Source: a virus | Virus record (IMG/VR): IMGVR_UViG_3300037558_000832 | Coordinates: 1-47,156 of that record | Strand: one strand, 5' to 3' | DNA length: 47,156 nucleotides | Shown here: in pieces, positions 1 through 47,156 of the stretch | Layout: each line of letters starts with the position of its first letter | How positions within the stretch are numbered: position 1 is the stretch's first letter | The notes under the pieces: model-generated | Database searches by the model: none | Told to the model about the DNA's origin: nothing | Seen by the model: the letters and a program-made list of their open reading frames with translations, nothing else | Made by a program: the position numbers and the translations under genes

Positions 1-238
1 GGGGAGGTTGCCAAGCTAACAGCTAGCACAATCAAGGACGGGGCTAAGCATGTTCTTATCTTCAACAAGTTTGTAGAGGAAGCTAACGCATTGAGCGATA
101 ACTTGCAGAAAATGGGTATTATTGCCGAGAGTATATCTGCAGAGACACCCAAGAAAGAACGTAAGCGGATACTAGATAACTTTAGAAGTGGAGAGATACA
201 AGTAGTTACGAATGTAGGAGTGCTGACTACTGGCTTTG
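1..238. repeat. Terminal direct repeat marking circular closure (left copy)
   Basis: These 238 bases recur at the right end of the window (46919-47156) with a single mismatch: A at 111 against C at 47029. Joining the copies makes one uninterrupted helicase reading frame, so this is best read as the overlap of a circular or circularly permuted genome of about 46,918 bp. A true packaged terminal repeat is possible but less likely, because the repeat lies wholly inside a coding sequence. Confidence 0.9.
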
Positions 239-705
239 ACTTCCCAGAACTAGACTGTGTGATACTCGCACGACCAACTCAATCAGTTGCCTTGTACTAC
301 CAAATGGTGGGGCGTGGAGTGCGTATAGCAGATAGCAAAGAGAACTTACACTTGATAGATGTATGCGGAAATGTAAAACGCTTTGGTAAAATAGAGACAT
401 TTGAGCTTGTACCCGTATCAGAGGGGAGCAAGCTATTACGGCTCAAGAGTGATGTTAGCTTCCTTACTGGATACGACTTTGTTGGAAACCAAGACTTAGA
501 AGAGCGAGACTATGCAGGATACAGAGAGGGTAGCGGAAAGAACCCAAACATAATCTTTATAGGAAAGTGGAATAACGGTGGTAGAGGAACTCACATTAGC
601 AAAATAGATACTGGGTACATGAGGTGGGCGATAGAGAACTTTAGCAATGGTACAATCAGAGACAAGTTTGCTAAAGAACTGGAACGAAGAGCAAACACAA
701 CATGA
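1..705 (+). CDS. SF2 DEAD/DEAH-box helicase, C-terminal part (continues from 46223)
   Basis: This is the second half of a 466-residue helicase whose first 232 codons lie at 46223-46918; base 1 is a codon start. The part here holds the RecA2 domain: motif V as TTGFD (residues 308-312 of the joined protein) and motif VI as QMVGRGVR (333-340), with two arginine-finger candidates. The last 120 or so residues are a C-terminal extension with no motif I recognise. The protein probably unwinds DNA or remodels branched DNA during phage replication and recombination, acting with the nearby exonuclease and SSB. The stop overlaps the next start as ATGA (702-705). At residue 269 the left copy reads Lys and the right copy reads Asn, which may be strain variation or a sequencing error. 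Confidence 0.9.
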   Translation, partial: GEVAKLTASTIKDGAKHVLIFNKFVEEANALSDNLQKMGIIAESISAETPKKERKRILDNFRSGEIQVVTNVGVLTTGFDFPELDCVILARPTQSVALYYQMVGRGVRIADSKENLHLIDVCGNVKRFGKIETFELVPVSEGSKLLRLKSDVSFLTGYDFVGNQDLEERDYAGYREGSGKNPNIIFIGKWNNGGRGTHISKIDTGYMRWAIENFSNGTIRDKFAKELERRANTT

Positions 706-1499
706 TAGAAGTTAAGTATAAAAGAGGTAAAAATCCTAACAGCAGAAATGGGTGGAAGAAAGGTGAAAACCATACTGGTATGTTAGGTAAAACCCACTCA
801 AAAGAGACCAGAAATAAAATAAGCGACGCTAATAAAGCAAACCCTACACGCTACTGGTTAGGCAAGAAGAGACCAAACATTGCAAAACAAATGAGTGAGC
901 GTGTTGTATCTGACGAGACCAAGAAAAGAATGAGTGAAAGTCAAAAAGGTAAGAAAATGCCACCTCGTTCTAAAGAACACTTAGCAAGGTTGAGTAAGAA
1001 TAATGCGAGATATTGGCAAGGTAAGAAGCAGTCGGTTACGACAAGAACTAAGAGGAGTAACTCAATGCTTGAAGTGTTAGACGGAGAAATGCCAAAAAAC
1101 ACACGGGAGAGTGGCACTTACGGTAACATCAAGAGGGGTTGGTATGATATTAACGGCAAGGAAATGTTTTTTAGAAGTAAGTGGGAAGCAAACTATGCTT
1201 TATATCTAGATTTTTTAATCAAACAAAATCAAATAAAGGGTTGGGAGTTTGAAAAAGATGTTTTTGTCTTTCATAAAATACAATTTGGTACTCGTAGCTA
1301 TAGACCCGACTTTAAGGTTTTCAATAATGATGACAGTATTGAATATCACGAAGTAAAGGGATACATGGATAGTAAGAGCAAGACAAAACTCAAACGAATG
1401 ACTAAGTATTATCCCGATACAAAAATAGTTCTTATTGAGAGAGATACTTACAGCGATATAAAAAAGAAGCTCGGTAGGGTGTGTGGCTTCTTTGATTAA
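702..1499 (+). CDS. Homing-type endonuclease: NUMOD3 repeats plus PD-(D/E)XK-like nuclease domain
   Basis: This 265-residue protein has two parts. Residues 1-120 are basic and carry NUMOD3-like DNA-binding motifs (GKTHSKETRNKISDANK near 29-45, then KKRMSESQKGKKM), typical of phage homing endonucleases. The C-terminal half has FRSKWEANYALYLDFL, then RPDFKVF and EYHEVKGY, the D...ExK pattern of PD-(D/E)XK nucleases seen in Vsr- and DUF1064-like proteins. It probably nicks or cuts DNA to spread its own gene. It overlaps the helicase stop by 4 bases. The helicase is also flanked upstream by an HNH nuclease. The catalytic assignment rests on motif pattern only. Confidence 0.75.
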   Translation: MIEVKYKRGKNPNSRNGWKKGENHTGMLGKTHSKETRNKISDANKANPTRYWLGKKRPNIAKQMSERVVSDETKKRMSESQKGKKMPPRSKEHLARLSKNNARYWQGKKQSVTTRTKRSNSMLEVLDGEMPKNTRESGTYGNIKRGWYDINGKEMFFRSKWEANYALYLDFLIKQNQIKGWEFEKDVFVFHKIQFGTRSYRPDFKVFNNDDSIEYHEVKGYMDSKSKTKLKRMTKYYPDTKIVLIERDTYSDIKKKLGRVCGFFD

Positions 1500-1502
1500 G
1501 AC

Positions 1503-1546
1503 TTATCCACATAGCGTATTGTGTAGTGTTGGATAATATGTATAAT
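1503..1546 (+). promoter_or_regulatory. Promoter with flanking inverted-repeat operator (copy 1)
   Basis: A -35-like TTGTGT (1519-1524) and TATAAT (1541-1546) are separated by 16 bases. Inverted arms TTATCCA (1503-1509) and TGGATAA (1530-1536) bracket the -35. The same layout with identical spacing occurs at 6687-6730. TTATCCACA here also matches the DnaA-box consensus. It probably drives the recombination operon that begins at 1563. Confidence 0.7.
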
Positions 1547-1562
1547 ATGTATATCAACACTT

Positions 1563-1784: not shown

Positions 1785-1806
1785 TAAAACACTTAATAAA
1801 ACACTT

Positions 1807-2337: not shown

Positions 2338-2339
2338 GT

Positions 2340-7420: not shown

Positions 7421-7519
7421 ATGACTACAAAGAAAGCAGAAGTGAAGAAGAAAAACACGCGGAAGAAATCGGTTTACCAATCGCGTATGGAAGTTTCTGC
7501 AAGTAGTTTATTAGAGTAA
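7421..7519 (+). CDS. Very small basic protein (32 aa)
   Basis: This short frame starts MTTKKAEVKKKNTRKK, strongly basic, and fits the gap between its neighbours with only short spacers. It complements the acidic 32-residue protein just upstream in charge. Function unknown. Confidence 0.45.
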   Translation: MTTKKAEVKKKNTRKKSVYQSRMEVSASSLLE

Positions 7520-7530
7520 ATAATATAAGT

Positions 7531-7722
7531 ATGGAGAAAGTATATGTAGCAATAGACGTAGGTTGTCACGAATGTGGTGTAGGTAGTGAAGTTATAGGTT
7601 CGTTCAAAACAAAGGGAGGAGCAGATGACGCTTGTGATAAGAGAGCCGATGAGACTAAGGAATGGAGAGATGGCGGGCAGGCAATCCCTGAAGTGTTCGA
7701 GATTATACTCCCCACCACCTAA
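7531..7722 (+). CDS. Small hypothetical protein (63 aa)
   Basis: It starts MEKVYVAIDVGCHECG, with two cysteines at CHEC and a later Cys, and an Asp/Glu-rich middle. It resembles small soluble phage proteins that bind a metal; no family recognised. A 12-codon frame with the MNTTEQLLE start follows at 7728, which looks like a remnant of the MNTP gene family described at 9147. Confidence 0.6.
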   Translation: MEKVYVAIDVGCHECGVGSEVIGSFKTKGGADDACDKRADETKEWRDGGQAIPEVFEIILPTT

Positions 7723-7772
7723 CACCATGAACACCACAGAGCAATTATTAGAGGTTCTTAATTAGTAGGAGT

Positions 7773-8159
7773 ATGAAATACTATCGACAATATAAATTGA
7801 AAAAAGAACTCCCTGATTATCCTGTTGGGTGGTTGTTCAGTTGGTGTGGTAACCGACAGCAATATATCCCGCATAAAGTAGATTGGCGAACATACGAAAG
7901 TAAGACTAGATTCACAAAAGACGAAATAGAAAGCAAACACGACTGGTTCGAGCCAGTTGGAACGGCAAAAGATTTTTATCCGCAGTTTCCGTCTCAAAGA
8001 AAACTAGACGAGTTTGTGTATCTTGAAGCAGAAACTCGTTTGGTTGATGACGTTGATTTTTGTCGCGCGTTTAACGAATTACAAAAAGACAACGGCTTTG
8101 TAAAACGACGTTACGAGTTTTACAAGACAGAATACGAACAAAAGTTCGGCAAAAACTAA
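7773..8159 (+). CDS. Hypothetical protein (128 aa)
   Basis: This soluble protein is rich in aromatic and charged residues (YYRQYKLKKELPDYPVGWLFSW start). No motif or membrane segment was recognised. It has a short AGGAG just before the ATG. It is part of the accessory operon. Confidence 0.7.
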   Translation: MKYYRQYKLKKELPDYPVGWLFSWCGNRQQYIPHKVDWRTYESKTRFTKDEIESKHDWFEPVGTAKDFYPQFPSQRKLDEFVYLEAETRLVDDVDFCRAFNELQKDNGFVKRRYEFYKTEYEQKFGKN

Positions 8160-8175
8160 CCCCCACACTACGAGT

Positions 8176-8316
8176 ATGACTACACAAGCAACCCACAGCA
8201 CTGACAAATGTTATTTAACCTACAGCGACGAGCTAGAGGGTGGTGGATACTTAACATGCACCTATAACCATAAAGTAGGAGAGGAATGTTTAATGGATAA
8301 AGAAAACGAATTATGA
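8176..8316 (+). CDS. Small hypothetical protein (46 aa)
   Basis: The frame MTTQATHSTDKCYLTYSDE... contains three cysteines and ends in TGA overlapping the next ATG as ATGA (8313-8316), which supports translation. Function unknown. Confidence 0.55.
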   Translation: MTTQATHSTDKCYLTYSDELEGGGYLTCTYNHKVGEECLMDKENEL

Positions 8317-8618
8317 CTATACAAGAACAATGGGAAGAGAGTTTGAACATCGACGTACGTTTCTCGTGGGCTACGGAGGAGCAACGCCGACACATTCTTG
8401 CTGAGATAAAGCACCAGCGTAGAACTAGGCAGCAAGAGACACAGAGGGAGGTACTAGAGGAGATTGAGAAGTTAAAACAAGTGAAGCCGAAAGGGAAATG
8501 CACCAATGCCGAAAATCATCTATTTGGTTCATGCTTTGAATGTAAAAAAATTGACGGCTACAACCAAGCACTCTCCGACCTCAAACAAGCACTTATCACT
8601 AACACTAAAGGAGTATGA
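8313..8618 (+). CDS. Hypothetical protein with coiled coil and paired cysteines (101 aa)
   Basis: The N-terminal two thirds is a charged helix (RRHILAEIKHQRRTRQQETQREVLEEIEKL). A short cysteine segment follows (GKC...GSCFECKK, about residues 71-86), then SDLKQAL. It could be zinc-binding. Coupled to both neighbours by 4-base stop/start overlaps. Confidence 0.65.
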   Translation: MTIQEQWEESLNIDVRFSWATEEQRRHILAEIKHQRRTRQQETQREVLEEIEKLKQVKPKGKCTNAENHLFGSCFECKKIDGYNQALSDLKQALITNTKGV

Positions 8619-8797
8619 AGAAACTTAAATGCTACATAGGACTGCACTCGCCCCAAGAGATTGGCAGAGCTGCATATCCTTACGACACAACGAAGACAGT
8701 GCTCGCGATGGGCTGTCGGTACTGTGGGAAGAAACTTGAACAAGGGTATCTTGTGGACACAGAATTGCTTGAAAAACAATCGCCACTAAACCACTAA
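8615..8797 (+). CDS. Small hypothetical protein with CxxC (60 aa)
   Basis: It contains CRYCGKK near residues 34-40 and one further cysteine near the N-terminus, a partial zinc-knuckle look. AAAGGAG lies 5 bases before the ATG, a fair Shine-Dalgarno site. No family recognised. Confidence 0.6.
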   Translation: MKKLKCYIGLHSPQEIGRAAYPYDTTKTVLAMGCRYCGKKLEQGYLVDTELLEKQSPLNH

Positions 8798-8799
8798 CC

Positions 8800-9144
8800 A
8801 TGAACACACCAACCAAAGAGGAAAGTATAGAGGAGATATACAAAGAGTATATAAAGAAGTGGGACAAAGGAGAGTTTGAGTGGAACCACCACGAAGGAGA
8901 CAAGCTAGGAAGAAAACCTATCTCACCAGAACGTATCTGGCAAACATTCATTGAGCCAACCCTCCAAGACGAACGCCAGAAGCGAGAGGAGGTGGTGGAA
9001 CGCGCAGAAGCTAGAGAAAAGCAATTAAAAACTATGCACACAATGGAGTTAGACACAGTTTCCTGTATGAGTATTGAAGACTTTGTAGTGTGGCGTGACC
9101 ACAGAAAGCAACGACCTACCCAACCTAATAACACTAAAGACTAA
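8800..9144 (+). CDS. Hypothetical protein, MNTP-start family (114 aa)
   Basis: The N-terminus MNTPTKEESIEEIYKEYI resembles those of the genes at 9147 and 44814, suggesting a shared duplicated 5' module. The rest is charged and helical without a recognised motif. The gene starts in CTAACCATGAACAC, the same initiation context as its relatives. Confidence 0.65.
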   Translation: MNTPTKEESIEEIYKEYIKKWDKGEFEWNHHEGDKLGRKPISPERIWQTFIEPTLQDERQKREEVVERAEAREKQLKTMHTMELDTVSCMSIEDFVVWRDHRKQRPTQPNNTKD

Positions 9145-21113: not shown

Positions 21114-21116
21114 CTT

Positions 21117-21980: not shown

Positions 21981-21993
21981 AAAATAAATCATT

Positions 21994-22845: not shown

Positions 22846-22858
22846 TCAATAATTTTTT

Positions 22859-23215: not shown

Positions 23216-23237
23216 TTATTAAATTAACAAATTAACC

Positions 23238-32700: not shown

Positions 32701-35700
32701 CTCGGACTTGGAGAAGAAAAGAATATAACCAAGTATGAAGACTACTTTATAAAGCGTGGTGTTGATGTATTAAAGGAGGGAGGAACACTAGCAATGGTAG
32801 TACCGTCTGGCTTCTTACGTCGAGCTTCTGGTAAAGCAAAGGAAGCAATAGCTAAGAGTGGAGACTTAATAGACGCATATCGTTTCCCTACAGGAGTATT
32901 TGAGGGTACTGATATAGGTACAGATATTGTTGTATTCCGTAAGAACACCACTGACGGTAACACACAAGAAAGGTTGGAGCTTATGTCTAACGACAAGTTC
33001 TTTGAGAAGTACCCAGACAACATACTCGGAAACCAGAAGCAAGTACGAAACCGCTTTGGTAAAATGGAAGACACTGTAACTGGTACGCTAGATGAAGCCA
33101 TTGCAATCTTTGACGCTAACAAAAACTCACACGACGCTGTAGATATTGCAGGAGAGAACGCTACACAGGAGCAGGTAGAAGATGTTAAAAAAGACTTGGA
33201 CGACGGCTCTACTAAGGAGCAAGCTAAAAAGACAGTAACTAAAGCAAAGACAGAGGGTAAGAAGACTATTAAAAAGAAGATAGCTAAGTCTGCTACCAAA
33301 AAGCATACAGAGGTTGTATCGCTCAACGAACACTTTAAGGGAGATTACACTCAAGACGAAATGAACCTGTGGCGTAGAACGCAACCAGACGGGAGCATTG
33401 AAGCTACTAAAAACGAAATAAAAGAGTTTGGAGAGCTACTAAACTATCACGACGGTAAGTGGTATTTGGACTTTAACTATGCACAAGGAGATATTTATAG
33501 AAAAATGCACTTGCTAGAGCACGCTAAGGCGACTAAAGCGATTGACGAAGCCAGATACAAGAAGCAAAAAGCAAAGCTAGAAGCTGTACTACCTAAGCAG
33601 GAAGCACTAGACGATATTTCACTAGCACCTAACTCAAAGTTTGTAGCTGATTTGGAACTAAGTACAGACGGTGCAACTGGAGAAGCAATTACACTCAAGT
33701 CTGCATTTATGAAGTGGATACGAGAGTTGCCACGAGGTTCTTTCGGTAACAGTAGCAGTTGGGAAGTGCAGGGGTATGTACAGAATGAGCAAGTGAGAGG
33801 TGCTGACAAAGACCGTAACGAAGCAATACGTCTACGTCGCAAGACCGTTGCAGAGGACTTGTTCTCTAAGTTTATGAAAGACGGCATAAACGCAGACCAG
33901 AAAGTAGCTATTGCTGACAAGTACAATGAGACGTACAACTTCTACCACACACCAGACTACTCTAAAGTGCCAATGTTCGCTGATACATTTAAGTATCTTG
34001 AGCGAATTACTAAGAAAAAAGTTGATTTTGAGCTACGACCCGTGCAAAAAGAGGGTGTAGGACGCTTGGTAAACAAAGGAGTTGGACTATTAGCCCACGA
34101 TGTAGGATTTGGAAAGACAATATCGGGAGTGCTTGCTACAAACGAAATCATGGCGAGAGGTTGGGCTAAGAAGCCACTTATCGTTGCACCTAACGAGAAC
34201 GTATACCAACAGTGGGTAAACACTATTCAAGATGTAGTGCCAGAAGCCAAATTAAACTTACTGGGAAACTTGGGAGCAGGATTTAAGGGCGACTTATCTT
34301 CGCTAACTATCCCAGAGGGTTCATTTACACTTGTTACTTACGAGGGGTTGAAACGACTGTCATTCAAGGACGAAACATACGCTGATATGGGTAGCAAGTT
34401 CGGTTACCTAACTGACGACTTAACCAAAGCGAAGAGTGCAAGAGATAAAGAAAAAGCAAAGGCAGAGATTGAGGGTACTGCAGGCAAGCTAAAGAAAGGC
34501 ACACGAGGAGATTTATACTTTGAGGATTTGGGCTTTGACTTGCTTACATTTGACGAGGTGCATAATGCAAACCACATTGTCTCTAAGGTTAAGCTACCAA
34601 AGGGGCAAGCTTCCGAGTTTAACCGCTTCTCACTACGACAATCGGACTTAGGGTTAAAGACATGGCTAGCTTCACAATATATTCAAGCAAACAATGGTGG
34701 CAGAAATGTTATCGGACTTTCTGCTACACCATTTACAAACCACCCACTAGAGTATTACTCAATACTATCTCTAGTTGCAGACGACAGCTTGAGTAAAATG
34801 GGCTTCAACAATGTAAACGAGTTCTTTAATACTTTCATGGAAGCAGAGCACGAGTACGAGTTTAAGGCAGACGGTTCGTACCAGAAGAAGACAGACATAC
34901 GTTCGTTCAAGAACTATCGACAGTTCCGCAAATTGCTTGATACATACATAGACTTTAAGGAGGGAGACGCACAAGGTATTAAGCGTCCTAACCGTGTACA
35001 ACGAGAATACAGCATACCTGCTAATGACATGACACTCCAAATGGAGACACAGGCACAAGCTATATTTCAAGAAGATGAGAAAGAAGAGGGCAAGGGCGCA
35101 AAAGTATTGCGTGCTATTAACGAGCTACGCAAGATTGCGTTTAGTCCGTATGCTTCCCAATTCTCCGAAGAACCTACAGACTACAAAGAGTTCGTAGAAA
35201 ACAGCCCAAAGATTAAGGTACTAATGGGTATCTTGAAGCAAAACAAGAAAGACATGAAAGAGGCAGGGCAGATTGTATACTTCGACCAAGTTGGTATCAC
35301 ATACATGCCACTTGTTAAAGAGTATTTGGTAAAAGAGCTAGGTTATAAAGCTACAGAAGTAGAGATTATCTCTGGCGGAGTTTCAAAAACCAAAAGAATT
35401 GCTATACAAGACCGATATAACGACGGAGAAGTAAAGATTGTACTAGGTTCAGAAGCCATAAAGGAGGGAATGAACCTACAGGAGAACACTACGGATATGC
35501 ACATATTGGCACTACCGTGGAACTTTACACAGCTACGACAAGTTATCGGGCGAGGGTGGAGACAAGGAAACCAGTGGGCAAACGTCCGTATCAACAACTA
35601 CTTTATTGAGGATAGTATAGATATATTCCTATCCCAGAAGCTTGAGAACAAACAACGACGATACGAAGCGTCTATTAAGTCTGGCGACCAGACTGTTGAT

Positions 35701-38700
35701 GTTGGAGATGTAAACTTCACAGAGTTGAAGTTTGACCTGATTAAAGACCCAGAGACCCGTGCAAAGCTAGAATTGGAAGCTAACAAGGAGAAGATAAGCC
35801 AAGAGGGTATCCAAGCTAAAGCTGACTTGGCATTTGCTACACGCAAGATTGAGAAGCTACAGACACTAGACGAGAACCTAAAGGACGCTAAGAAACGACT
35901 AGCGGAAGAGAAAAAGAAGTTTGAAGAGGAGAAGAAGACCGACCCCGAAGCGAGCGACTTCTGGGTTACTCGTTACGAAGACGATATTAAACGTGATACT
36001 AAAGCACGAAAAGAAGAATTAGAGCGACTAGAAGCTAAAGGCGAGGACTTGGAAACTCTTATTGCACGCAAGACAAAAATGGAAGCAGAGGTTGAGCGAC
36101 TAGACAAAGAGGAGAAAGAGATAGCAGAAAGCTTTGACGAGCGTGTAGCTACAATCAAAGCAGAGCTACCACCACGAACAACATTCTCTGACGATACAGT
36201 TGCTAAGTTTGTTGAAGAACGTAAAGAGCACAACAAAACTTTCTACGCTAAAGCCGAAGAGGAAACTACAGAAGTTGTAGCTGTAGAGACTGTAGAGAAG
36301 CCGATAAAAAGCACTAGCGGTAAGGTTGTTAAGACTAAGAAAACCACTAAGGCGGTAGCGAAAAAGAAAGCCACACCTAAAAAGAAAGCTACAAAAGACC
36401 AAGTAATGCTGAAAATCTTGACCGATAGCAAGCTAACTGTTACTGAAAAAGTAGACAAGCTACTTGGTAAGAAGCAGGAGGGTAAGAAGTTCAAAGATGT
36501 GGGAGAGCGTGTTGCAGGTTCTAAAAAAGAAAATGCCGTCATTCAAGCGGTTATTCAGCATGGAGATGACGCACTATTGAAGCAACTAGCTGACGAACTA
36601 GGAACAGACCCAATAATTGCACAGTTAGACAAAGCTAAGATATTAGAGGGTGTAGAAGTTCCTACTAGAGAGGTTGAGGAAGCTAAAAAGACACCTGCGT
36701 GGATAGCAGGGTATAAAGTAAAGGTATTCCAGACTATCAGTAAAGTGCCGATAACTGTACTAAAGCGAAGTAAGTACAATAGTTATACTCTAGTTGGAGA
36801 TAACATGATAGACGACTTTATTGCGAAGTATCCAAGTATGCTAAAAGACTTTGTGGAAAAGTTAAACAAAGTAAAAGACGCAAAATCTATCAGAGAGTTT
36901 CAAGGATTGTATAACTGGAACTTAGGGGAAGTTAAAAACACAAAAGACCAGTACATAAACGTGGGCATAGAAGTGCTCGGTAGAACTATTGAAAATGCAA
37001 TTAGAGGTGGCGGTAAGTTCGTTAAAGATACAAAGAACGTAATTACAGAGATTGACCGCTTAGAGCGTGTCTTAGCAGTTCTTGAACAAGGAGTACAGGA
37101 AGAAGAAGACCAAGCGTATGTAGGAGACGGCAAGTGGGAGACTGTAACCAAGTATCTAGGAATGGGTACTTACGGTACACGAACATCACTTTACCCTACG
37201 AAAAAGGAAGCCGAGGATAGTATTGCGAAGTTTAAGAAAGAAGAGCCGAAAGCGTTAGAAGAAACAAAGGCAGAGCTACTTGGCTACGAAACTGATTTTG
37301 ACAAGTTTGTACCACAGAAAGGTTTAAGCATTGCGAAACAAATTGCTGATACGGAACGCCAGATAAAGAGTTATGACGAAAGCATTGAGTTTATCCAAAA
37401 GAAAGCTGACGAGGGCGACACCTACTATACACAAGATAGAGTAGAGGAAGCCAAGAAACAACAACAAGCTCTTAAAGACCACCTAGCACGCCTTACTGGA
37501 CAGACTACTGCAATAGTACACGGTAACTTTGAGACGCTCAGCGAGTATGACGTGAAAGACAGTCGTTTCAAGAAGTCTCAAATTACAATGGATAACCTAA
37601 TGAAAGTGTACGGCTTTAAGTCTGCACAGTTGGGTAATTACATGGACGACGCAAGCTCAAAGGAGCATATCGTACAGACAATGGGTGCAATGGAAGACAT
37701 GAGCACCATTCTTGGAGTGGACTTCTCAAAGATTACGAATGAGCTAGGGTTATCTTATGCAATAGGAGCACGAGGTAGTGGAAACGCAAACGCACACTAC
37801 GAACCTACACACAACATAATCAACCTAACCAAAAAGCGTGGCGACGGTTCATTCGGGCACGAGTTTATGCACTTTTTAGACTGGAAAGTTGGTAAAAAGG
37901 ATACACGAAGAGGTAAGTGGAGTGGTGGTAAAGGATACGGACGCTACAGCTATAGAGGTACTGACTTAATCAGTATGGAACTTACAGGTATGTTCTATCG
38001 TGGAGCAGAAGTACCACATGAAAAGACATTCAAGCCAGACGACGACGTTAATGTTGAAGACCGTAGGTTTGCCGAGGTTGCCGACTGGAGAAACGAAGAG
38101 AAACTATCACTTGAAGACGCTGTATCAAAAGCACAACAGTTACACTCTGGTTATCTACAAGCTGTTGCAGATGTATATCGCAAAGAAGTTGTTGCTCAAA
38201 CAACGGAAAAGAAGAACGACTACTACAAAAAATCATTGGAGTATGGTGGTGGTAAAGATACTTCTTACTGGGTTAAGAGCCACGAACTATGGGCACGAGC
38301 TTTCCAAGCATACCTAGAAGACAAGCTAGAAGAGAAAGGTATCAAGAACAACTACCTAACAAGAACTACAAAAGACATGCCTGTATATCCACAAGGAGAC
38401 GAGCGTGTTGCCTACAACAAGAAGTTTGACGAGTTGTTTACTGCACTTGCAAAGGATTACCCTATAGCAGAGGACGCTAAGTTAAGCGAGCCACGGTTTA
38501 AGACTAAAGATACAGTTGCAATAGCACTAACAGACGGTGGTAAGTACCTAGACGATATAAAAGACCGTCTAAAAATAGACTTTGATGTACATTTTGTTGA
38601 TAACATTTTAGTTGAGCAGATAGACCAGTATGTGTATACACAAGCTTACGGTGTAACCGTAGACAATACGATTGCAATAGCAAAAGATGTAAAAGACACA

Positions 38701-41700
38701 ACCGTTCCACACCACGAAGTAGTCCACCTTACTCTTGCAAATATGGGCAAGATTGACGCTTTCAAAGGACTTACGGCAGACGAAGTGCTACTAGCCAAAG
38801 CAGAGGAGCTTGGTATCGCACTCAACAGCAAGAACCGAAACTTCATAGAAGAGCAAATAGCTGTAGACTTTGAGAACTATGTAGCTAAGAAGAGCAAGCC
38901 AGTAGGTAAAATCAAAGCTTTCTTTGATAGACTTATTGAGCTACTACAGGGATTAGTACGGGTGCTAAAAGCAGACCGAGGTAGTGTAATTCTTGATTAC
39001 TATGACATTCTTCTTACAGGAAAAAGCGTAAACGACGACATGGTGCGGTTTGAAAACGAGGGAGTGGTGGAGAGCTTTATAACTGACGGGAAACTAGACA
39101 TATCCGAGATTAACGACCCGTCTTTCTACGAACACATTACGCTTTCAACAAAAGATATAGACACTACTACTTGGGACTTCCAAAATGCCAAAGAAGATTA
39201 CAGGCGTGGTTTACGCTCTGTTACAAAGGGAGCACCTATAGTGAAGTGGGATAGACGTAAAAATAAATACTACATTAAGGACGGAAACCACAGAGTAGTT
39301 GAGCAAATGGCACGGGGTAAAAAACGATTTGCTGTACGAGCCGAGGGCTTGAAGTTTAAGCTACGAGAAGACCGACATTTTGCCAACTTAAAAGACCAAC
39401 ACAACAAGTTGGTGGATAAAATGCACACTGTTGAAGCAAAACTGGACGCTAACAGGGTTAATCTAGCAAAAGCACTCAAGATACGGGAAAACAAGAACGA
39501 AGCATTAGAAGAGACAATTACCCCTGCAGTAACAGAGCTACGGAAGAACCTAACTAACGAGGGTGTACTTTCAGAGACTGGAGAAAAAGTGGCAGAAGAA
39601 CTGGGATACAACCCAGAAGAGGTTAATGTCGCACTTAACGATTATCTAAAATCAAAGGAGGAGTACAGCCACATATACGGTGCGACTGTAGAGCAGAAGA
39701 ACGAGATAGCGAAACTACGAAAAGAAGACACGGAACTTACTGCAAAGCGAGCCGAGATTGTACGGAAGCTAAAGCAAAAGAAAGCACGCCTTGAGCAATT
39801 TGAGAGAGACGTACAGCGTGGGTTTAAGCAAGGTGTTAAGGCAATGAAAAAAGCGAACGCTATTCGTCGCTTCCAAGTACGCAATCTTGAGACTGCGACA
39901 GGTATCTCTTCTGCACAACGACGCAGACTGATAAAGGGACGCAACTTTGAGACCATGAACGACCAAGATTTCAACAACTTCATGCAGGATATGATACGGA
40001 CAGCACGAGACATGACAGAAAAAGAAGCTCTACAGCAGGACATAATGGCTGAAATACAGTATAAGCAGTTTAGTAAGTACGATAACTTGCGACTGGCTCT
40101 TGGGCTTCCGAGCGTTACAGCAATGAACCAAACGCAACTACGAACATACCGAGACGCACTTGCACAGTATGAGTTTGGAGATACATTTTTGAGTAAACGA
40201 CAAATTGAAACTTCTGAACGCACTACATTCGGAAAGGTTGCTACAGTGCGAGAGTTAACTAAAGCTATCAAAGAGGGTACTGACTTAACCTTTGAGGACT
40301 TGAAGACAGTAGATTTACCTAAGCTTGCAGGGTACGCAAATGGTTTACGTCTCTCACGACACAGTAACTTATTGAAGTATGTCGTTGATAATCTTATAAG
40401 AATTGAGATTGAAACAGAGCAACAGTTCTTACAACACAGAAAAAAGATTGAAACCCTAGCAAAGAAAGCTCGCAAATCACGCAAGAAGAGTATAGGAGAA
40501 AGAGCAAAACAGATTTTTGTACCTACAGATGAGCTTGTTTTTGAGTACATTGAGGTAAAGGACACCAAGAAAGCTAAGTTTTCTAAGGATAAAGGTATGA
40601 CGAAAGAGGAAATAGAGTTTGGTAATGCCATTATTGCTTTTAACCGAGTTGCCTATGACTACATGAAAGAAGTGTATCAGCTAACTTCTAGGTTTGGTCA
40701 GTTCAAAGAGAAAGACTACATGGTGCATATCCGACGCTCATTCCTTGAAGCTGTTAAAGACGACGGAATAAAGGCAGGTGTAAGCGAGATGTTTACGAGC
40801 CAAAAAGAAGCGGAACTCTCAATGAGTATACTAGACGGTAAGACGGGAGACATTGTACCTTACGAGAAGTGGTCTCCATTCCACCAATTACGAGCAGGCA
40901 AGATAAAGCCAACTCAAAATGTAACAAACGCACACCTTGTATATGCTAAAACATTCTTTAAGAAGAGAAGTATAGACAGCTATGTGCCACAACTCTTAAT
41001 GGTTCTAGGGTTACGCAACGATGTTGTAGAAAAGACAAAGGAGGGGCTACCAATTGACGGGGGTGTTGAGAACTTTATTAAAGAGTACATAAACAACGCA
41101 CGAGGTAGGAAAATATCAGAGAAGCTTATACCGAAACAAGGAAGTACCACAGAAGCTACATTTAATATGGCTATTACTGCCACCACACTGCTCGCTCTTG
41201 GTGGGCGTATAGGAATTGGTACAGCGTCTGCAGTTGGAGAGTTCGTAGTTACTACAGCTTCCATGATATTAAGCCCTAAGAAGATTGCACGAGCAGGGCT
41301 ACGCACACTACAGTTTAAGCAAGCTAAGAAAGTACGAGAGGGAGCACGACACTATGTCGGGCTTAACCCACTTGAAGAGCTAATGAGTGTAGAGAAAGGA
41401 CTACCAGACAGAGCACTTGAAAGTGTAATGATATTATTCTCGTTTGGTAGGTACATCTCACATGTATACGCACTACAAGCGAACCTAACACCCGAAGAGT
41501 GGCAAGAAGCTAAAGTATCAACAGAGCGTCTGTTAGACATCTCTAAGGAGCAAAACAAGTTCAAGCGTGGACGCTTCCATGCAGGTTCACTTGTTGGCTC
41601 AACAGTAGTGGGTAGAGCGTTTGGACAGTACCTATCATGGGCATACGATATAGCTACTACAACAGCAAGCAGTTCGGTACGACTGCTAAAGACAGCGAGA

Positions 41701-42516
41701 GAAGAGGGGCTTACAGAAGCTCGCAAGTCTGAATACATGAAAGACTTACTTAACTTTACCGCTACAGCAATCTTAATGGCTGTACTGGCAAGTCTTATCC
41801 CAGTGGACGAAGAAGACGAAGAAAACCGCACAATACTCTTCTACATACGCCGTGAAATGAATACACTCTGGTCTGCGTTCCCTGCTTTAATCCGTTACAG
41901 TCAGTACACAGGAACTATAAAACCAACACTACCTATCATTGAAAAAGGTGTTGAGCTATTTACGCTATCACTACAACTAATCTCTCAAGAAGCTTACAAA
42001 CGAGACGGTAGGGGATACGGAATTGGCGATAAAAAGTTTGTACGCACAGCAAGAAAGCTATTTGTACCAGTTGCCATACAAGAGCTAACAGGAGCTAACG
42101 AGAAACGGGATACTAAGAGACGACTGATAGAGGAAGCAATCGCAGACGATAAACTAGACGCAAGTAAGATTGCCGAGACCGTATTTGAGGGTTGGAACGA
42201 GGGAGACGCAGAGTACCGAATTAAGAAAATTGGCGAAATAACCAAGCTTTACAACCTGCATAAGAAGTACGGATTTGATAATGAGCTAGTAAATATCATT
42301 CTGCATGGCGACGGGGTTTCCACAGTGAACAATGAGGAAAGAGCCGAGCTTATGGTAGAATACGCTAAACAGAACGGTGTGTCAGAAACTCGGCAAGAGA
42401 TACTGGAATTGCGAAAAGACCGCAATTTATGTACTGATACCAAGAAGAGAACGGGTTGTTTCGTTTCAGAGAGACTTTGGAAAGAATACTCTCAACTACT
42501 TCGTAAAACACAATAA
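29773..42516 (+). CDS. Giant polyvalent protein: methyltransferase, SNF2-type helicase, two HExxH motifs and ParB-like motif (4247 aa)
   Basis: Domains in order by residue. A Gly/Ala-rich hydrophobic segment lies at 245-275. Charged coiled coils span about 510-626. An N6-adenine methyltransferase core has LEPAVGVGNF (894-903) and NPPY (966-969). A SNF2/SF2 helicase has GFGKT (1445-1449), DEVH (1594-1597), SATP (1650-1653) and QVIGRGWRQ (1923-1931). A lysine-rich tract lies at about 2192-2210. Metallopeptidase motifs are HEFMH (2696-2700) and HEVVH (2981-2985). KDGNHR (3169-3174) is ParB-like. Hydrophobic segments lie near 3798-3833 and 3995-4011. Fusions like this (phage P1 DarB is the classic) are known to enter the cell with phage DNA and resist restriction. 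Position after the fibres supports a virion role. It fills 27% of the genome. Confidence 0.85.
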   Translation: MATYEDIIKGKTGAQPPKKDVAVKPVEKPEPTKTTFSYEEIKAQAKTPKATPIRLDTPEVKERRQEISAYRGKRAPQDQTYNKDGTKFEDSLGKKVGRFFLPKHLEDDLGVRGLTKAEELQRGESRFQNRLRMSEFETKLKAQIPTEPTLPSDYKEPTSFTGSLVEGVKSGYYGTLKPAIGYFEESMGHQIGSRERIQHGKELGDQMTIDFMKKVELQRPEDMEDFLGGGYKDKRYYGRVIGETIPFMATIITSSLAGAFFGGGAGGFAGMFGSAKIIEQGNAYKSMLDKGLAPDEASLGADIYGTASALIEGALGITSRTVSGAVNQEGREIIASSFNKYLLEAVPQTLKTSGKQVLEEGGEEVAQEITQRLITDWWTKEEDIITADLVESFATGVIGSAPFTVLNIPAYKKDVSVEVATEQAKETLDEMGIDDGGDPLNTLAEVSEEKPNEVEEVLTEIQKRDIEAQQTNRARNLLEQGASQTEAILELSSLVGIEDATKLVESIAPEVEAKIKKEEAKARAKRERKATEDAKAEVDRIAKEAEEAGKKTDLEKSVEVLAEEIKELQQEVKDAKPNTKEKATLKKALEEKRKALREKRVVEKEEITTPIEDQAKKARELAEKQRVTAKKTANVVVYDTRGKVSTKEVEVVGSGKYGGVDVIVHKKTGDGQKGFTVSHKETGLTLGIEPNARLKKPESILRDVKDKLKKKLGVKTDKELAEKMKEASKDKKRVSEVEDVDKDIDKKEIISKTKKDEQDKDTRDRADGDGVSEADEVGKEKPDRVGRDDKKSRKKGKKPELRDDSDKPRERPTARLTNEEIAKKVEAVTEISNTGEVLLVGEVTEELREQANQYTTGGESKEGRGILDEYYTNSKIVDAVKSLLKFPTQPIKALEPAVGVGNFLYALPEVDGHTVVTHEINETTARIAKIFHPDTSVNTNSFETTFIDERGNKKEFDSDYDVVIGNPPYGEHRGKYLGLGEEKNITKYEDYFIKRGVDVLKEGGTLAMVVPSGFLRRASGKAKEAIAKSGDLIDAYRFPTGVFEGTDIGTDIVVFRKNTTDGNTQERLELMSNDKFFEKYPDNILGNQKQVRNRFGKMEDTVTGTLDEAIAIFDANKNSHDAVDIAGENATQEQVEDVKKDLDDGSTKEQAKKTVTKAKTEGKKTIKKKIAKSATKKHTEVVSLNEHFKGDYTQDEMNLWRRTQPDGSIEATKNEIKEFGELLNYHDGKWYLDFNYAQGDIYRKMHLLEHAKATKAIDEARYKKQKAKLEAVLPKQEALDDISLAPNSKFVADLELSTDGATGEAITLKSAFMKWIRELPRGSFGNSSSWEVQGYVQNEQVRGADKDRNEAIRLRRKTVAEDLFSKFMKDGINADQKVAIADKYNETYNFYHTPDYSKVPMFADTFKYLERITKKKVDFELRPVQKEGVGRLVNKGVGLLAHDVGFGKTISGVLATNEIMARGWAKKPLIVAPNENVYQQWVNTIQDVVPEAKLNLLGNLGAGFKGDLSSLTIPEGSFTLVTYEGLKRLSFKDETYADMGSKFGYLTDDLTKAKSARDKEKAKAEIEGTAGKLKKGTRGDLYFEDLGFDLLTFDEVHNANHIVSKVKLPKGQASEFNRFSLRQSDLGLKTWLASQYIQANNGGRNVIGLSATPFTNHPLEYYSILSLVADDSLSKMGFNNVNEFFNTFMEAEHEYEFKADGSYQKKTDIRSFKNYRQFRKLLDTYIDFKEGDAQGIKRPNRVQREYSIPANDMTLQMETQAQAIFQEDEKEEGKGAKVLRAINELRKIAFSPYASQFSEEPTDYKEFVENSPKIKVLMGILKQNKKDMKEAGQIVYFDQVGITYMPLVKEYLVKELGYKATEVEIISGGVSKTKRIAIQDRYNDGEVKIVLGSEAIKEGMNLQENTTDMHILALPWNFTQLRQVIGRGWRQGNQWANVRINNYFIEDSIDIFLSQKLENKQRRYEASIKSGDQTVDVGDVNFTELKFDLIKDPETRAKLELEANKEKISQEGIQAKADLAFATRKIEKLQTLDENLKDAKKRLAEEKKKFEEEKKTDPEASDFWVTRYEDDIKRDTKARKEELERLEAKGEDLETLIARKTKMEAEVERLDKEEKEIAESFDERVATIKAELPPRTTFSDDTVAKFVEERKEHNKTFYAKAEEETTEVVAVETVEKPIKSTSGKVVKTKKTTKAVAKKKATPKKKATKDQVMLKILTDSKLTVTEKVDKLLGKKQEGKKFKDVGERVAGSKKENAVIQAVIQHGDDALLKQLADELGTDPIIAQLDKAKILEGVEVPTREVEEAKKTPAWIAGYKVKVFQTISKVPITVLKRSKYNSYTLVGDNMIDDFIAKYPSMLKDFVEKLNKVKDAKSIREFQGLYNWNLGEVKNTKDQYINVGIEVLGRTIENAIRGGGKFVKDTKNVITEIDRLERVLAVLEQGVQEEEDQAYVGDGKWETVTKYLGMGTYGTRTSLYPTKKEAEDSIAKFKKEEPKALEETKAELLGYETDFDKFVPQKGLSIAKQIADTERQIKSYDESIEFIQKKADEGDTYYTQDRVEEAKKQQQALKDHLARLTGQTTAIVHGNFETLSEYDVKDSRFKKSQITMDNLMKVYGFKSAQLGNYMDDASSKEHIVQTMGAMEDMSTILGVDFSKITNELGLSYAIGARGSGNANAHYEPTHNIINLTKKRGDGSFGHEFMHFLDWKVGKKDTRRGKWSGGKGYGRYSYRGTDLISMELTGMFYRGAEVPHEKTFKPDDDVNVEDRRFAEVADWRNEEKLSLEDAVSKAQQLHSGYLQAVADVYRKEVVAQTTEKKNDYYKKSLEYGGGKDTSYWVKSHELWARAFQAYLEDKLEEKGIKNNYLTRTTKDMPVYPQGDERVAYNKKFDELFTALAKDYPIAEDAKLSEPRFKTKDTVAIALTDGGKYLDDIKDRLKIDFDVHFVDNILVEQIDQYVYTQAYGVTVDNTIAIAKDVKDTTVPHHEVVHLTLANMGKIDAFKGLTADEVLLAKAEELGIALNSKNRNFIEEQIAVDFENYVAKKSKPVGKIKAFFDRLIELLQGLVRVLKADRGSVILDYYDILLTGKSVNDDMVRFENEGVVESFITDGKLDISEINDPSFYEHITLSTKDIDTTTWDFQNAKEDYRRGLRSVTKGAPIVKWDRRKNKYYIKDGNHRVVEQMARGKKRFAVRAEGLKFKLREDRHFANLKDQHNKLVDKMHTVEAKLDANRVNLAKALKIRENKNEALEETITPAVTELRKNLTNEGVLSETGEKVAEELGYNPEEVNVALNDYLKSKEEYSHIYGATVEQKNEIAKLRKEDTELTAKRAEIVRKLKQKKARLEQFERDVQRGFKQGVKAMKKANAIRRFQVRNLETATGISSAQRRRLIKGRNFETMNDQDFNNFMQDMIRTARDMTEKEALQQDIMAEIQYKQFSKYDNLRLALGLPSVTAMNQTQLRTYRDALAQYEFGDTFLSKRQIETSERTTFGKVATVRELTKAIKEGTDLTFEDLKTVDLPKLAGYANGLRLSRHSNLLKYVVDNLIRIEIETEQQFLQHRKKIETLAKKARKSRKKSIGERAKQIFVPTDELVFEYIEVKDTKKAKFSKDKGMTKEEIEFGNAIIAFNRVAYDYMKEVYQLTSRFGQFKEKDYMVHIRRSFLEAVKDDGIKAGVSEMFTSQKEAELSMSILDGKTGDIVPYEKWSPFHQLRAGKIKPTQNVTNAHLVYAKTFFKKRSIDSYVPQLLMVLGLRNDVVEKTKEGLPIDGGVENFIKEYINNARGRKISEKLIPKQGSTTEATFNMAITATTLLALGGRIGIGTASAVGEFVVTTASMILSPKKIARAGLRTLQFKQAKKVREGARHYVGLNPLEELMSVEKGLPDRALESVMILFSFGRYISHVYALQANLTPEEWQEAKVSTERLLDISKEQNKFKRGRFHAGSLVGSTVVGRAFGQYLSWAYDIATTTASSSVRLLKTAREEGLTEARKSEYMKDLLNFTATAILMAVLASLIPVDEEDEENRTILFYIRREMNTLWSAFPALIRYSQYTGTIKPTLPIIEKGVELFTLSLQLISQEAYKRDGRGYGIGDKKFVRTARKLFVPVAIQELTGANEKRDTKRRLIEEAIADDKLDASKIAETVFEGWNEGDAEYRIKKIGEITKLYNLHKKYGFDNELVNIILHGDGVSTVNNEERAELMVEYAKQNGVSETRQEILELRKDRNLCTDTKKRTGCFVSERLWKEYSQLLRKTQ

Positions 42517-43524: not shown

Positions 43525-43845
43525 ATGAGCTTTGATTTTGATAAAGAAGATTTGGCTAGGTACTTCATAGACAACCACAGATGTTGGTACTGTGGCAAAA
43601 ATACTGTAAGTGCGTTCCACCATATCCACCCTCGCTCTGATACAGCTAGGTGTTCCAGTAGTATGTTTAATGTAGCTCACTTATGTAATTACCCATGCCA
43701 CCTAAATAATCATGGAGTGCTTGTAACAGAAGAATGGCGTAAGAAGTTTCTACAGCGAACTGCTAAATACTTGTTTGCACAAAATATAATCTTGAAAGAT
43801 GTGGATAAAGACTTCCTAACAAATAACGCAAAATACTACGAGTAA
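43525..43845 (+). CDS. HNH endonuclease (106 aa)
   Basis: It has CWYCGK (residues 20-25), FHHIHPRSD with the HH catalytic pair (about 31-39), and CNYPCH (about 54-59), the zinc-stabilised HNH fold. It cuts or nicks DNA. Its position directly before the origin-like region and replisome organizer is unusual for the packaging-linked HNH proteins that lie near terminase, so a free-standing homing or replication-linked role is more likely. A TGTGGATAA (reverse DnaA-box) lies inside its last codons. Confidence 0.85.
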   Translation: MSFDFDKEDLARYFIDNHRCWYCGKNTVSAFHHIHPRSDTARCSSSMFNVAHLCNYPCHLNNHGVLVTEEWRKKFLQRTAKYLFAQNIILKDVDKDFLTNNAKYYE

Positions 43846-44058: not shown

Positions 44059-44811
44059 ATGGCAAACCGTAGAATGTTCTCGTTGGATATAGTGGACACT
44101 GACGCATTTTTGGATATGCCTACAGGTTCGCAGTTGTTGTATTACCACTTAGTAATGAGGGGAGACGACGACGGATTTGTAGACAACCCGAAAAAGATAA
44201 TGCGAATGGTCGGCTCAAATGAAGACGACATGAAAGTATTAGTAGCAAAAAAGTTTATACTTCCTTTTGAAATTGGTGTGTGTGTTATCAAGCATTGGAA
44301 GATACACAACTATATTCAAAATGACAGGTATAAACCAACTCGCTACTCCAAAGAAATGGCTCAACTTATAGTCAAAGACAATGGTGGATACAAACTGGAT
44401 ACAGACTGTATCCAAAATGGAAACACAGGTAAGGATAGGTTAGGTAAGGTTAGTTTAGATAAGAAGTCGGAGATTAAGAAAGAAAAGCCAAAAGAGAAGA
44501 CGACGGTAGTTAAGTTCACTCCAAAGGATATGGAAATGGCAGAACTACTTGTATCGCTCATAAAGCAAAACAATCCTGCGTGGCAACTACGAGGAAATAT
44601 AGATGTTTGGGCAGAGCACATTGAGAAGCTCCATAGAATTGACAACCGAACCTACGAGCAGATAGAAGTAATGATTAGGTGGACACAACAAGACCCGTTT
44701 TGGTCGCAAAACATTTTATCAACTGCCAAGCTCCGAGAGAAGTTTAACGACTTAATCCCACGACTAAAGAAAGTGAAGACTGGGAGAGCAGGTACTAAAG
44801 TAAACTTTTAA
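44059..44811 (+). CDS. Phage replisome organizer / replication initiator
   Basis: This 250-residue protein has the N-terminal winged-helix domain seen in replisome organizers of many Firmicutes phages: RRMFSLDIVDTDAFLDMP, YHLVMRGDDDGFVDNPKKIMR and VCVIKHWKIHNYIQ. A linker with NGNTGKDRLGKVSL follows, encoded by the TTAGG-type repeat, then a C-terminal helical domain (about 150-250) that would load helicase. It probably binds the phage origin and recruits the host replisome; the phage encodes no polymerase or primase that I can see. Confidence 0.88.
   Translation: MANRRMFSLDIVDTDAFLDMPTGSQLLYYHLVMRGDDDGFVDNPKKIMRMVGSNEDDMKVLVAKKFILPFEIGVCVIKHWKIHNYIQNDRYKPTRYSKEMAQLIVKDNGGYKLDTDCIQNGNTGKDRLGKVSLDKKSEIKKEKPKEKTTVVKFTPKDMEMAELLVSLIKQNNPAWQLRGNIDVWAEHIEKLHRIDNRTYEQIEVMIRWTQQDPFWSQNILSTAKLREKFNDLIPRLKKVKTGRAGTKVNF
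44408..44458 (+). repeat. TTAGG-type repeat inside the replisome organizer gene
   Basis: TGTATCC, ACACAGGTAAGG, TAGGTTAGG and AAGGTTAG units recur here, with a close non-coding relative at 11975-12027. Iterated sites inside an initiator gene can form an origin, as in lambda O, but this is inference. Confidence 0.55.
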
Positions 44812-44813
44812 CC

Positions 44814-45350
44814 ATGAACACACCTAAGACAAAAGAAGAAATAGTTGATTTTCGACACAAAACAATACCACTTAGAGATGGAAAGTTCGTGTTGGCTTGG
44901 GACAAGCGGTGTAACGACTGCCATGTACCAAACGCCCACAAACCAACGAAGGAGTACTGCTTTGCAGAAGTGCCGAACATTACTTACGATAATGAAAATG
45001 CAATTAACATATTAGTAAGCGACATATCATCACATCTTCACGATAGAAATCATTGGTATCTATCTGATGCTGAAAATGACACAGGAAGAAAGTGGCTTGG
45101 TGGATTACTAGAAAAAGCCCTCACCCTCCACGAACAAGCAGTAAAGGAGCGTGTGGTGGAGATGTTGATGCCGTGGCTAGAACACGACAACCAGTGTATC
45201 TTGTGCCAGTTTGAAAAAGGAGAACCAACTGAAAACGGCGGGTACCGACAGAAGTTTGCAGGCAAGTGGTACGAGTCAAAGCCAGTTGATAGAACACCTG
45301 AGTGCAACTGCGAGCTAAACAACGCCATTACTAAGATACAAGAAGCATAG
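44814..45350 (+). CDS. Hypothetical protein, paralogue of the gene at 9147 (178 aa)
   Basis: The first 40 bases from the TAACC before the ATG are identical to those at 9142-9181, and the C-terminal module (ALTLHEQAVKERVVE, MPWLEHDNQC, CNCELNNAITKI) is nearly the same, while the middle is distinct and has CNDCHVPNAHKPTKEYC. That segment adds a possible zinc site. Function unknown. Confidence 0.7.
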   Translation: MNTPKTKEEIVDFRHKTIPLRDGKFVLAWDKRCNDCHVPNAHKPTKEYCFAEVPNITYDNENAINILVSDISSHLHDRNHWYLSDAENDTGRKWLGGLLEKALTLHEQAVKERVVEMLMPWLEHDNQCILCQFEKGEPTENGGYRQKFAGKWYESKPVDRTPECNCELNNAITKIQEA

Positions 45351-45351
45351 T

Positions 45352-45774
45352 ATGAAATACTTCAAAGTAAAAATTGGATACGGTGCTGACGACTATATAA
45401 GCATTACAACTCCACAGAACTTGGAGAAAGCTTTATACCTATTTGCTTCTAAAGAAGACGGGTTTTTGGACGGAAAACCAGTACGGGGTGTAGATATAAT
45501 CACTATCACAGAGGATTGGAATAAAGCTCTTGGAGTAGCAGACAGCTACAAACTAAACGGAGAAGACCAGATGTTGCTATCTTCACGGGGTATTAAGAAA
45601 CAATATGCAGGAATAATAGAGAAGTACTCTATGCGTGTAGAATATCTACTCAAAAATGGGAAGAAGAACCTTATCGGGCAGAAAGTAGATATACCAGAGT
45701 TGGACGCACCAAAGGCAAAGGAAATTAGCGAGAAATCAAAGAAATTATCAGAGGGCATGAAAATGCCAGAATAG
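45352..45774 (+). CDS. Hypothetical protein (140 aa)
   Basis: This alpha/beta soluble protein (KYFKVKIGYGADDYISITTP start) has a charged helical C-terminus (KAKEISEKSKKLSEGM). It lies one base after the preceding stop. No family recognised. Confidence 0.7.
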   Translation: MKYFKVKIGYGADDYISITTPQNLEKALYLFASKEDGFLDGKPVRGVDIITITEDWNKALGVADSYKLNGEDQMLLSSRGIKKQYAGIIEKYSMRVEYLLKNGKKNLIGQKVDIPELDAPKAKEISEKSKKLSEGMKMPE

Positions 45775-45777
45775 CTT

Positions 45778-46233
45778 ATGAATGGATACGGAAACAAAAA
45801 CAGTAACTACCGACACGGACATAACTCTAAAACTGCAATTAGTCCGACGTATTTTAGTTGGTCTGCAATGAAGAGTAGATGTGTTAGTAACCACGAGAGT
45901 CAAATAAGATATAAAAACATATCAGTATGCAAGCGTTGGGAGAAGTTTGAGAACTTCTTAGAGGATATGGGAGAGCGTCCAAAAGGTTTGACTTTGGATA
46001 GAATAGATAACAATAAGGGTTATTCAAAAGAAAACTGTAGGTGGGCGACACTGGCAGAACAACAAAGAAACAGAACCGACAGTACTATTTTGGAGTATAA
46101 AGGGAAAAGAAAACATATTATTGAGTGGGCAAAAGAGTTGGGTACTACTACTATTGTTTTGAGAGCTAGATTACGACGTGGTTGGACAGTTGAAAGAACT
46201 ATAAATACTAAAGTGAGAAAATATGGGATATAA
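45778..46233 (+). CDS. HNH homing-type endonuclease (151 aa)
   Basis: The segment GLTLDRIDNNKGYSKENCRWAT with AEQQRNRTD is the classic HNH/NUMOD pattern of phage homing endonucleases, preceded by SWSAMKSRC and an aromatic DNA-contact region. The C-terminal part (KHIIEWAKELGTTTIVLRARL) is an HTH-like DNA-binding segment. It overlaps the helicase start by 11 bases, so the helicase gene is flanked by nuclease genes on both sides. Confidence 0.88.
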   Translation: MNGYGNKNSNYRHGHNSKTAISPTYFSWSAMKSRCVSNHESQIRYKNISVCKRWEKFENFLEDMGERPKGLTLDRIDNNKGYSKENCRWATLAEQQRNRTDSTILEYKGKRKHIIEWAKELGTTTIVLRARLRRGWTVERTINTKVRKYGI

Positions 46234-47156
46234 ATTAAGACCTTATCAAAAAGCTTCGGTAGAAGCAGGACTAAGAACATTACGCATGTTTAAGCGTGAG
46301 GTGCTTGTAGAACCTACTGGCTCTGGTAAAAGCTTAATTATTGCGTCTATAGCAAAAGAACTTGAGGGAGACACTATAGTTTTTCAACCAAACAAAGAGA
46401 TACTAGAGCAGAACCTACAGAAAATGCACGACTTCGGATTTACTGATGTCGGTGTCTTTTCGGCTTCAATGGGTCAGAAGACAGTCGGTAAAGTTACTTT
46501 CGCAACAATCGGAACAATCTACAACCAAAAAGACATGTGGCATTTGTTTGATAACGTGATTATTGACGAGTGCCACTTAGTAAACGCTAAGGGTGGAATG
46601 TACGACGAGTTTATTAAAGCTCATGGTGGGGCAGTTCTAGGGCTTACAGCGACACCTTACCGCTTGCACTCTTACAACGACTACAAAACAGACGAGCGAG
46701 CAGTTGTAGCTAAAATGCTTAACAGGACACGCCCTAAGATTTTTGACGGCATTGCACACATTACGCAGGTTAGTGAGATGTATGACTTGGGCTTCCTAGC
46801 TCCTGTACGCTACTCTGTAGCTAGCGGATACGACCACTCGCAGTTGACCCTAAACAGTACGGGTATGGACTTCACAGACGCTTCTTTGAGAGCATACAAC
46901 GAAGAGAATGATGTTGTCGGGGAGGTTGCCAAGCTAACAGCTAGCACAATCAAGGACGGGGCTAAGCATGTTCTTATCTTCAACAAGTTTGTAGAGGAAG
47001 CTAACGCATTGAGCGATAACTTGCAGAACATGGGTATTATTGCCGAGAGTATATCTGCAGAGACACCCAAGAAAGAACGTAAGCGGATACTAGATAACTT
47101 TAGAAGTGGAGAGATACAAGTAGTTACGAATGTAGGAGTGCTGACTACTGGCTTTG
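46223..47156 (+). CDS. SF2 DEAD/DEAH-box helicase, N-terminal part (continues at base 1)
   Basis: From ATG 46223 the frame is open to the window end and joins base 1 in phase, giving 466 residues. RecA1 motifs are complete: LRPYQKAS (Q-motif-like, 5-12), PTGSGKS Walker A (31-37), IIDECH Walker B (113-118) and LTATPYR motif III (141-147). The fold is like phage SF2 helicases of the UvsW/YprA type. The ATP-driven enzyme probably remodels replication or recombination intermediates. It overlaps the upstream HNH gene. Confidence 0.92.
   Translation, partial: MGYKLRPYQKASVEAGLRTLRMFKREVLVEPTGSGKSLIIASIAKELEGDTIVFQPNKEILEQNLQKMHDFGFTDVGVFSASMGQKTVGKVTFATIGTIYNQKDMWHLFDNVIIDECHLVNAKGGMYDEFIKAHGGAVLGLTATPYRLHSYNDYKTDERAVVAKMLNRTRPKIFDGIAHITQVSEMYDLGFLAPVRYSVASGYDHSQLTLNSTGMDFTDASLRAYNEENDVVGEVAKLTASTIKDGAKHVLIFNKFVEEANALSDNLQNMGIIAESISAETPKKERKRILDNFRSGEIQVVTNVGVLTTGF
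46919..47156. repeat. Terminal direct repeat marking circular closure (right copy)
   Basis: The same 238 bases as 1-238 with C at 47029 in place of A at 111. Confidence 0.9.

Follow-up and report, generated by a model that had tools for sequence, protein, structure and literature searches.

We analyzed the IMG/VR virus record IMGVR_UViG_3300037558_000832 over its entire length of 47,156 bases, hereafter the window. This virus contig carries a 238-base repeat at its two ends (1-238 and 46919-47156), with one mismatch between the copies, and therefore probably represents a tailed-phage genome in essentially complete form; no exact end repeat is shown in the record. According to counts and a shuffle null, GATC, GGCC, and CCGG are missing from the genome (1-47156) outside one gene, and CGCG, TCGA, GCGC, ACGT, and AATT are low. 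The exceptional gene (21994-22845, plus strand) encodes a glycine-rich protein and lies in a variable stretch (20814-23444, plus strand). Nearly all genes are on one strand. Other genes identified include those for the terminase large subunit (12381-14081, plus strand; phrog_2, 9.7e-38), the terminase small subunit, a YqaJ-type recombinase, a DnaD-like helicase loader, HNH proteins, and an M23 peptidase. Comparison at the DNA level with an annotated phage collection found no close phage.

An exact count over the 47,156 bases places GATC at 22187, 22306, 22330, 22343, and 22528 and nowhere else. These are the positions listed in a preliminary description of this DNA, which missed none and correctly assigned all five to the glycine-rich gene. 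Its expectation of about 170 sites equals the figure from base composition (164), but that figure is too high because the coding strand is purine-rich, and a fair expectation is near 80. Specifically, a second-order Markov model predicts 78.2 sites (observed/expected 0.064, z -10.1), in line with the ratio below 0.1 and the confinement to 21994-22845 that the preliminary description had predicted, and 200 within-gene synonymous-codon shuffles predict 85.2 (lowest shuffle, 68). Under the same shuffle the glycine-rich open reading frame (ORF) has five sites versus 5.57 expected, and the remainder of the genome has none versus 79.6. Thus the glycine-rich gene shows no GATC avoidance and the entire deficit falls elsewhere. 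The probability that five random points would fall within 341 bases of 47 kilobases (kb) is 1.4e-8.

The deficit is visible at the level of individual codon choices. Among 848 adjacent codon pairs with a synonymous GATC option in plus-strand genes outside the glycine-rich ORF, none uses GATC; within that ORF, 5 of 19 such pairs spell it. Aspartate codons that precede a C are GAC in all 91 cases and never GAT, whereas elsewhere GAT makes up one third of aspartate codons. GATC was thus lost by selection acting on silent changes. The synonymous shuffle rules out codon bias or purine skew as the cause of the depletion.

The preliminary description spoke of avoidance of one tetranucleotide, which is too narrow. 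GGCC is absent from the whole genome (0 versus 42 expected from the Markov model) and CCGG occurs once versus 47 expected, at 22127, again within the glycine-rich ORF. Outside that ORF the synonymous shuffle gives 0/38.1 for GGCC and 0/34.6 for CCGG. With elimination defined as observed/expected below 0.1 where more than 15 sites are expected, GATC (5/78), CCGG (1/47), and GGCC (0/42) all qualify, so at least three words are entirely eliminated outside one gene and GATC is not a unique case. Four further words are depleted relative to the Markov model (CGCG 6/54, TCGA 17/96, GCGC 16/68, ACGT 65/183). Versus the codon-shuffle expectation, CGCG, TCGA, and GCGC stand at 7-24%, ACGT at 42%, and AATT at 45%; AGCT, GTAC, TGCA, TTAA, CTAG, and TATA come close to that expectation or exceed it. 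Non-palindromic neighbors of like composition are unaffected (GATA 307/201, TATC 219/118, CCGT 82/48, GGCG 92/65), with GATG (0.68) and CATC (0.62) slightly low. The terminase large subunit gene has none of six avoided words versus 19.5 expected. Among six-base palindromes that lack an avoided four-base core, 186 were found in coding sequence versus 388 expected from the synonymous shuffle (for example, AAATTT 0/24 and AATATT 0/15), a halving that may reflect six-base specificities.

Terminase searches recovered 17 related viral contigs at 54-61% identity (tblastn; 55-62% for the six in an alignment). All were analyzed, about twelve of them whole or near-whole contigs and the others short; gene calls followed a simple longest-ORF rule, so per-gene figures are approximate. 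The avoided set varies among these lineages. G006 (49 kb) lacks TCGA (0/169) and GGCC (0/47) and is poor in CATG (9/108). G005 (37 kb) has lost CATG (0/65) and GGCC (0/24), with GCGC 1/48, CCGG 1/22, and TCGA 3/80. Only CCGG is eliminated in G002 (29 kb; 0/66), where GATC is at expectation (105/100). G003 lacks CATG (0/32) and TCGA (0/40), and G016 and its near kin lack GTAC (0/39) and are low in TCGA (2/92) and ACGT (3/55). In G017 (15 kb) ACGT, CATG, CCGG, GATC, GGCC, and TCGA are all exactly zero, and in G015 (49 kb) and G008 (38 kb) no word falls below 0.1. Since the word sets differ among relatives, they point to different Type II enzymes in the hosts rather than to codon habit or a universal mechanism. 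Stand-alone DNA methyltransferases (C5, N6/N4, and MT-A70 types) are encoded by G008 and G016, at L032:4377-5504, L037:1073-2038, and L036:18421-18876, and none is encoded in the window; G008, which carries such methyltransferase genes, is among the genomes with no eliminated word.

Other phages run through the same script served as yardsticks: phage K and SPO1 (50 kb each), T7, lambda, and phiV10. Staphylococcus phage K has no GATC in 50 kb versus 78 expected, in agreement with its reported elimination (PMC6532042), and phiAGO1.3 has two GATC and no GGNCC (PMC6346686). In these phages GATC, the site of Sau3A, is eliminated or nearly so, as here, although they belong to a different phage group and presumably infect a different host. 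Bacillus phage SPO1 has lost GGCC (0/49), as in the window, and CGCG (0/21); GATC is only mildly reduced there (120/174), unlike here. No eliminated word was found in lambda or phiV10. In a broad survey, the eliminated sites were almost only those of orthodox Type II enzymes, and elimination was commoner in non-temperate phages (Rusinov et al. 2018, PMC6286503). The window shares with the surveyed cases an observed/expected ratio below 0.1 for four-base palindromes in a tailed double-stranded DNA phage, judged here by the Markov and codon nulls rather than by the Burge compositional bias of that survey. It differs in that three words are fully lost outside one gene, others are depleted, residual sites lie in one gene, and sites are not paired with enzymes.

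The glycine-rich gene encodes a protein of 283 amino acids, 40% of them glycine (PF21722, phrog_2295), with a weak match to a tail-fiber-assembly profile (phrog_863, 3.6e-4). The stretch around it, 20814-23444, is not conserved and lies between the head block and the tail block, both conserved, of a syntenic structural region. In blastp searches against five relatives its proteins show almost no homology, except for the glycine-rich protein. Aligned homologs of that protein, at 41-48% identity, occur in four relatives. The protein of 19734-20738 has homologs of 61-69% identity in relatives by blastp, although a pattern search with it among viral contigs returned none. In the relatives examined for it, the glycine-rich homolog occupies a comparable position with similar neighbors. 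Homologs in four relatives imply that the locus is old and that its alleles differ. Its location and the weak match to the tail-fiber profile make a role for the protein in host recognition plausible.

Codon usage also sets this gene apart from the rest of the genome. Its GAT:GAC ratio is 12:3 versus 261:633 genome-wide (p = 8e-5), its AAT:AAC ratio is 11:6 versus 189:449 (p = 0.005), and the T-ending share of its NNY codons is 0.75 versus 0.21-0.62 in the other genes tested. On GAT:GAC and AAT:AAC, the copies in relatives show no significant difference from their own genomes, and they have mostly lost the words avoided in those genomes (in G002, for example, CCGG 0 versus 5.0 expected). The five GATC sites all have synonymous alternatives, in Gly-Ser or Asp-Pro pairs. 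Because the gene combines normal site frequency, foreign codon usage, and a variable locus, it is likely a recently imported tail-region allele that has yet to be purged.

Unpurged segments also occur elsewhere. All nine CATG sites of G006 fall within 44528-46307 (1.8 kb; range p 2.6e-11) and the word is absent from the rest of that contig; one gene of the segment has six sites versus 5.8 expected. The segment follows the gene for a giant protein, in the place held by the M23 peptidase in the window. Its genes have no Pfam match, and that they function in lysis is a guess. In the window itself, a second island (7458-9001, plus strand; 1.5 kb of small ORFs of no known function) holds all six CGCG sites (p 2e-7) and 4 of the 17 TCGA sites. 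It contains no GATC, GGCC, or CCGG, though few would be expected in such a stretch, and it is probably another import. The two islands of the window thus differ, one being unpurged for GATC and CCGG, the other for CGCG yet free of GATC, GGCC, and CCGG. In G005 the sole CCGG lies in the glycine-rich gene, and the sole GCGC and one of the three TCGA sites lie in its neighbor. Islands that keep different words hint at a layered history, albeit in small numbers. Tentatively, we suggest that in this clade, which probably infects Patescibacteria, eliminated words turn over and segments that retain words may record the order of restriction pressures and imports.

Restriction as the agent of elimination, which we regard as very probable, and the recency of the import are what we infer from these patterns; that long-term purging by several enzymes was followed by recent import of the glycine-rich gene is, as a joint explanation, probable. 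The lineage would have spent a long time among hosts with several orthodox Type II systems that cut four-base palindromes, targeting at least GATC, GGCC, and CCGG and probably also CGCG, TCGA, and GCGC. Variants in which synonymous changes had removed sites would have survived infection until no site remained. Later, a tail-region gene from a source free of that pressure may have been acquired, or may have replaced a resident copy, by recombination. Its normal site frequency would then reflect a lag in purging, with GATC and CCGG restriction probably rare or absent in the present hosts. That five GATC sites are tolerated suggests that GATC restriction is now uncommon in these hosts or that other protection exists, such as the DarB-like protein encoded in the window. 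The restriction-driven elimination proposed in the preliminary description is the best explanation and is strongly supported by the codon-preserving nulls and the relatives, with the amendment that several specificities are implied rather than one word. Either methyl-dependent DpnI-type or Sau3AI/MboI-type cleavage would fit the GATC data.

An alternative source of GATC avoidance is methyl-directed mismatch repair, via MutH nicking, or Dam-linked regulation. phiX174 has no GATC and a link to mismatch repair has been studied (PMC5014478), T7 has 5 of 121 expected sites in our script, and GATC is partially depleted in many members of the present clade. However, MutH cannot account for GGCC or CCGG, which are equally absent here. 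Moreover, G002 combines normal GATC with complete loss of CCGG, and other relatives lose CATG, GTAC, or TCGA. With more words affected than GATC, we reject this as the sole cause and consider it very improbable as a substitute for restriction, although it could add to the GATC depletion. Still harder to credit is purging by the phage against nucleases of its own that cut host DNA at these words. Matches to HNH and restriction-endonuclease-like PHROG families do occur at 43525-43845 and 45778-46233, but the depleted words, at least six, exceed the nucleases present, relatives lose unrelated word sets, and homing enzymes of the HNH/NUMOD types usually recognize long sites.

Other explanations accept restriction and concern the glycine-rich gene alone. 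It could be old and exempt, for example if its codons were under some other constraint; its homologs in four relatives mark an old locus, and G005 likewise keeps its sole CCGG there. This is unlikely, given that synonymous alternatives exist at all five GATC sites, that the copies in relatives have mostly lost the words avoided in their own genomes, and that the codon shift is not shared. The segment could instead be an assembly chimera, in which sequence of another phage was joined at a low-complexity gene. Repetitive glycine-rich coding sequence in a metagenomic contig, with every site in a single gene, would fit such an error. Against it, the ORF is intact, relatives from other samples have glycine-rich genes at the corresponding place, with matching genes beside them, and G006 shows the same clustering in a gene that is not glycine-rich; we rate a chimera as quite improbable.

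With moderate confidence we also infer that the host belongs to a lineage of Patescibacteria, also known as the candidate phyla radiation (CPR). Of the nine genome loci with homologs of the glycine-rich gene, five carry the title Patescibacteria, Paceibacterota, or Nomurabacteria. Among 380 sampled genomes from the phylum of one of these loci, read as Patescibacteria, the genomes with an endonuclease over the cut-off numbered 10 for the DpnII family (GATC), 4 for HaeIII (GGCC), 5 for HpaII (CCGG), and 1 for TaqI (TCGA). At the two endonuclease loci that were read, methyltransferase-like ORFs, recognized by sequence motif rather than profile search, adjoin the endonuclease. Restriction enzymes abound in CPR bacteria, most of which have no CRISPR (PMC4742961). 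Restriction-family endonucleases together with little CRISPR fit a host in Patescibacteria, short of proof. A terminase search of species genomes gave no match, and in the 380 genomes it gave distant matches in two only and no prophage relative. A tblastn comparison of proteins from the window and its relatives with the metagenome-assembled contigs that carry glycine-rich homologs, with low-complexity masking, found almost nothing shared, so those contigs are not close phages.

Several points weigh against the joint explanation of purging, recent import, and a host in Patescibacteria. No donor of high identity was found for the glycine-rich gene, the best database stretch being 69% over 59 residues. 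The protein is of low complexity, and unusual codons could arise without import, though the copies in four relatives are unshifted. The record is a metagenomic assembly, in which glycine-rich genes are likely spots for chimeras. The link to Patescibacteria comes from homologs of this gene, which are partial matches.

Restriction-site elimination itself is already known, as in phage K, SPO1, and T7. Less usual are the loss of several words together, the turnover of word sets within a clade, and an unpurged gene whose remaining sites point to its recent import. Literature searches, with most subscription papers outside their reach, found no earlier account that uses clusters of residual sites to mark imports. 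Elimination is usually averaged over the genome; in the window it is complete enough that a single exceptional gene becomes visible. Absent words could thus be used to trace recent gene exchange in uncultivated phages, with no need for a donor sequence. The differing word sets of relatives may also reveal the restriction repertoire of uncultured hosts, which could be checked by single-cell or methylome data. Should the host prove to be a CPR lineage, the pattern would be evidence that restriction, not CRISPR, drives the arms race there.

The largest gene of the window (29773-42516, plus strand) encodes a 4247-amino-acid DarB-like polyvalent protein that takes up 27% of the genome, and homologous giants are present in relatives. 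It contains six sites of the six avoided words versus 135.5 expected. The protein matches phrog_10089 ("DarB-like antirestriction", 5e-57) and combines methylase and helicase domains in one very large chain (Eco57I 1.4e-13, ResIII 2.6e-10, Helicase_C 5.8e-10, LPD1 1.6e-19). Methylase, helicase, and LPD1 domains are shared with DarB-like polyvalent antirestriction proteins, and on this basis it is a second putative antirestriction feature. The predicted antirestriction protein would here coexist with site elimination rather than replace it.

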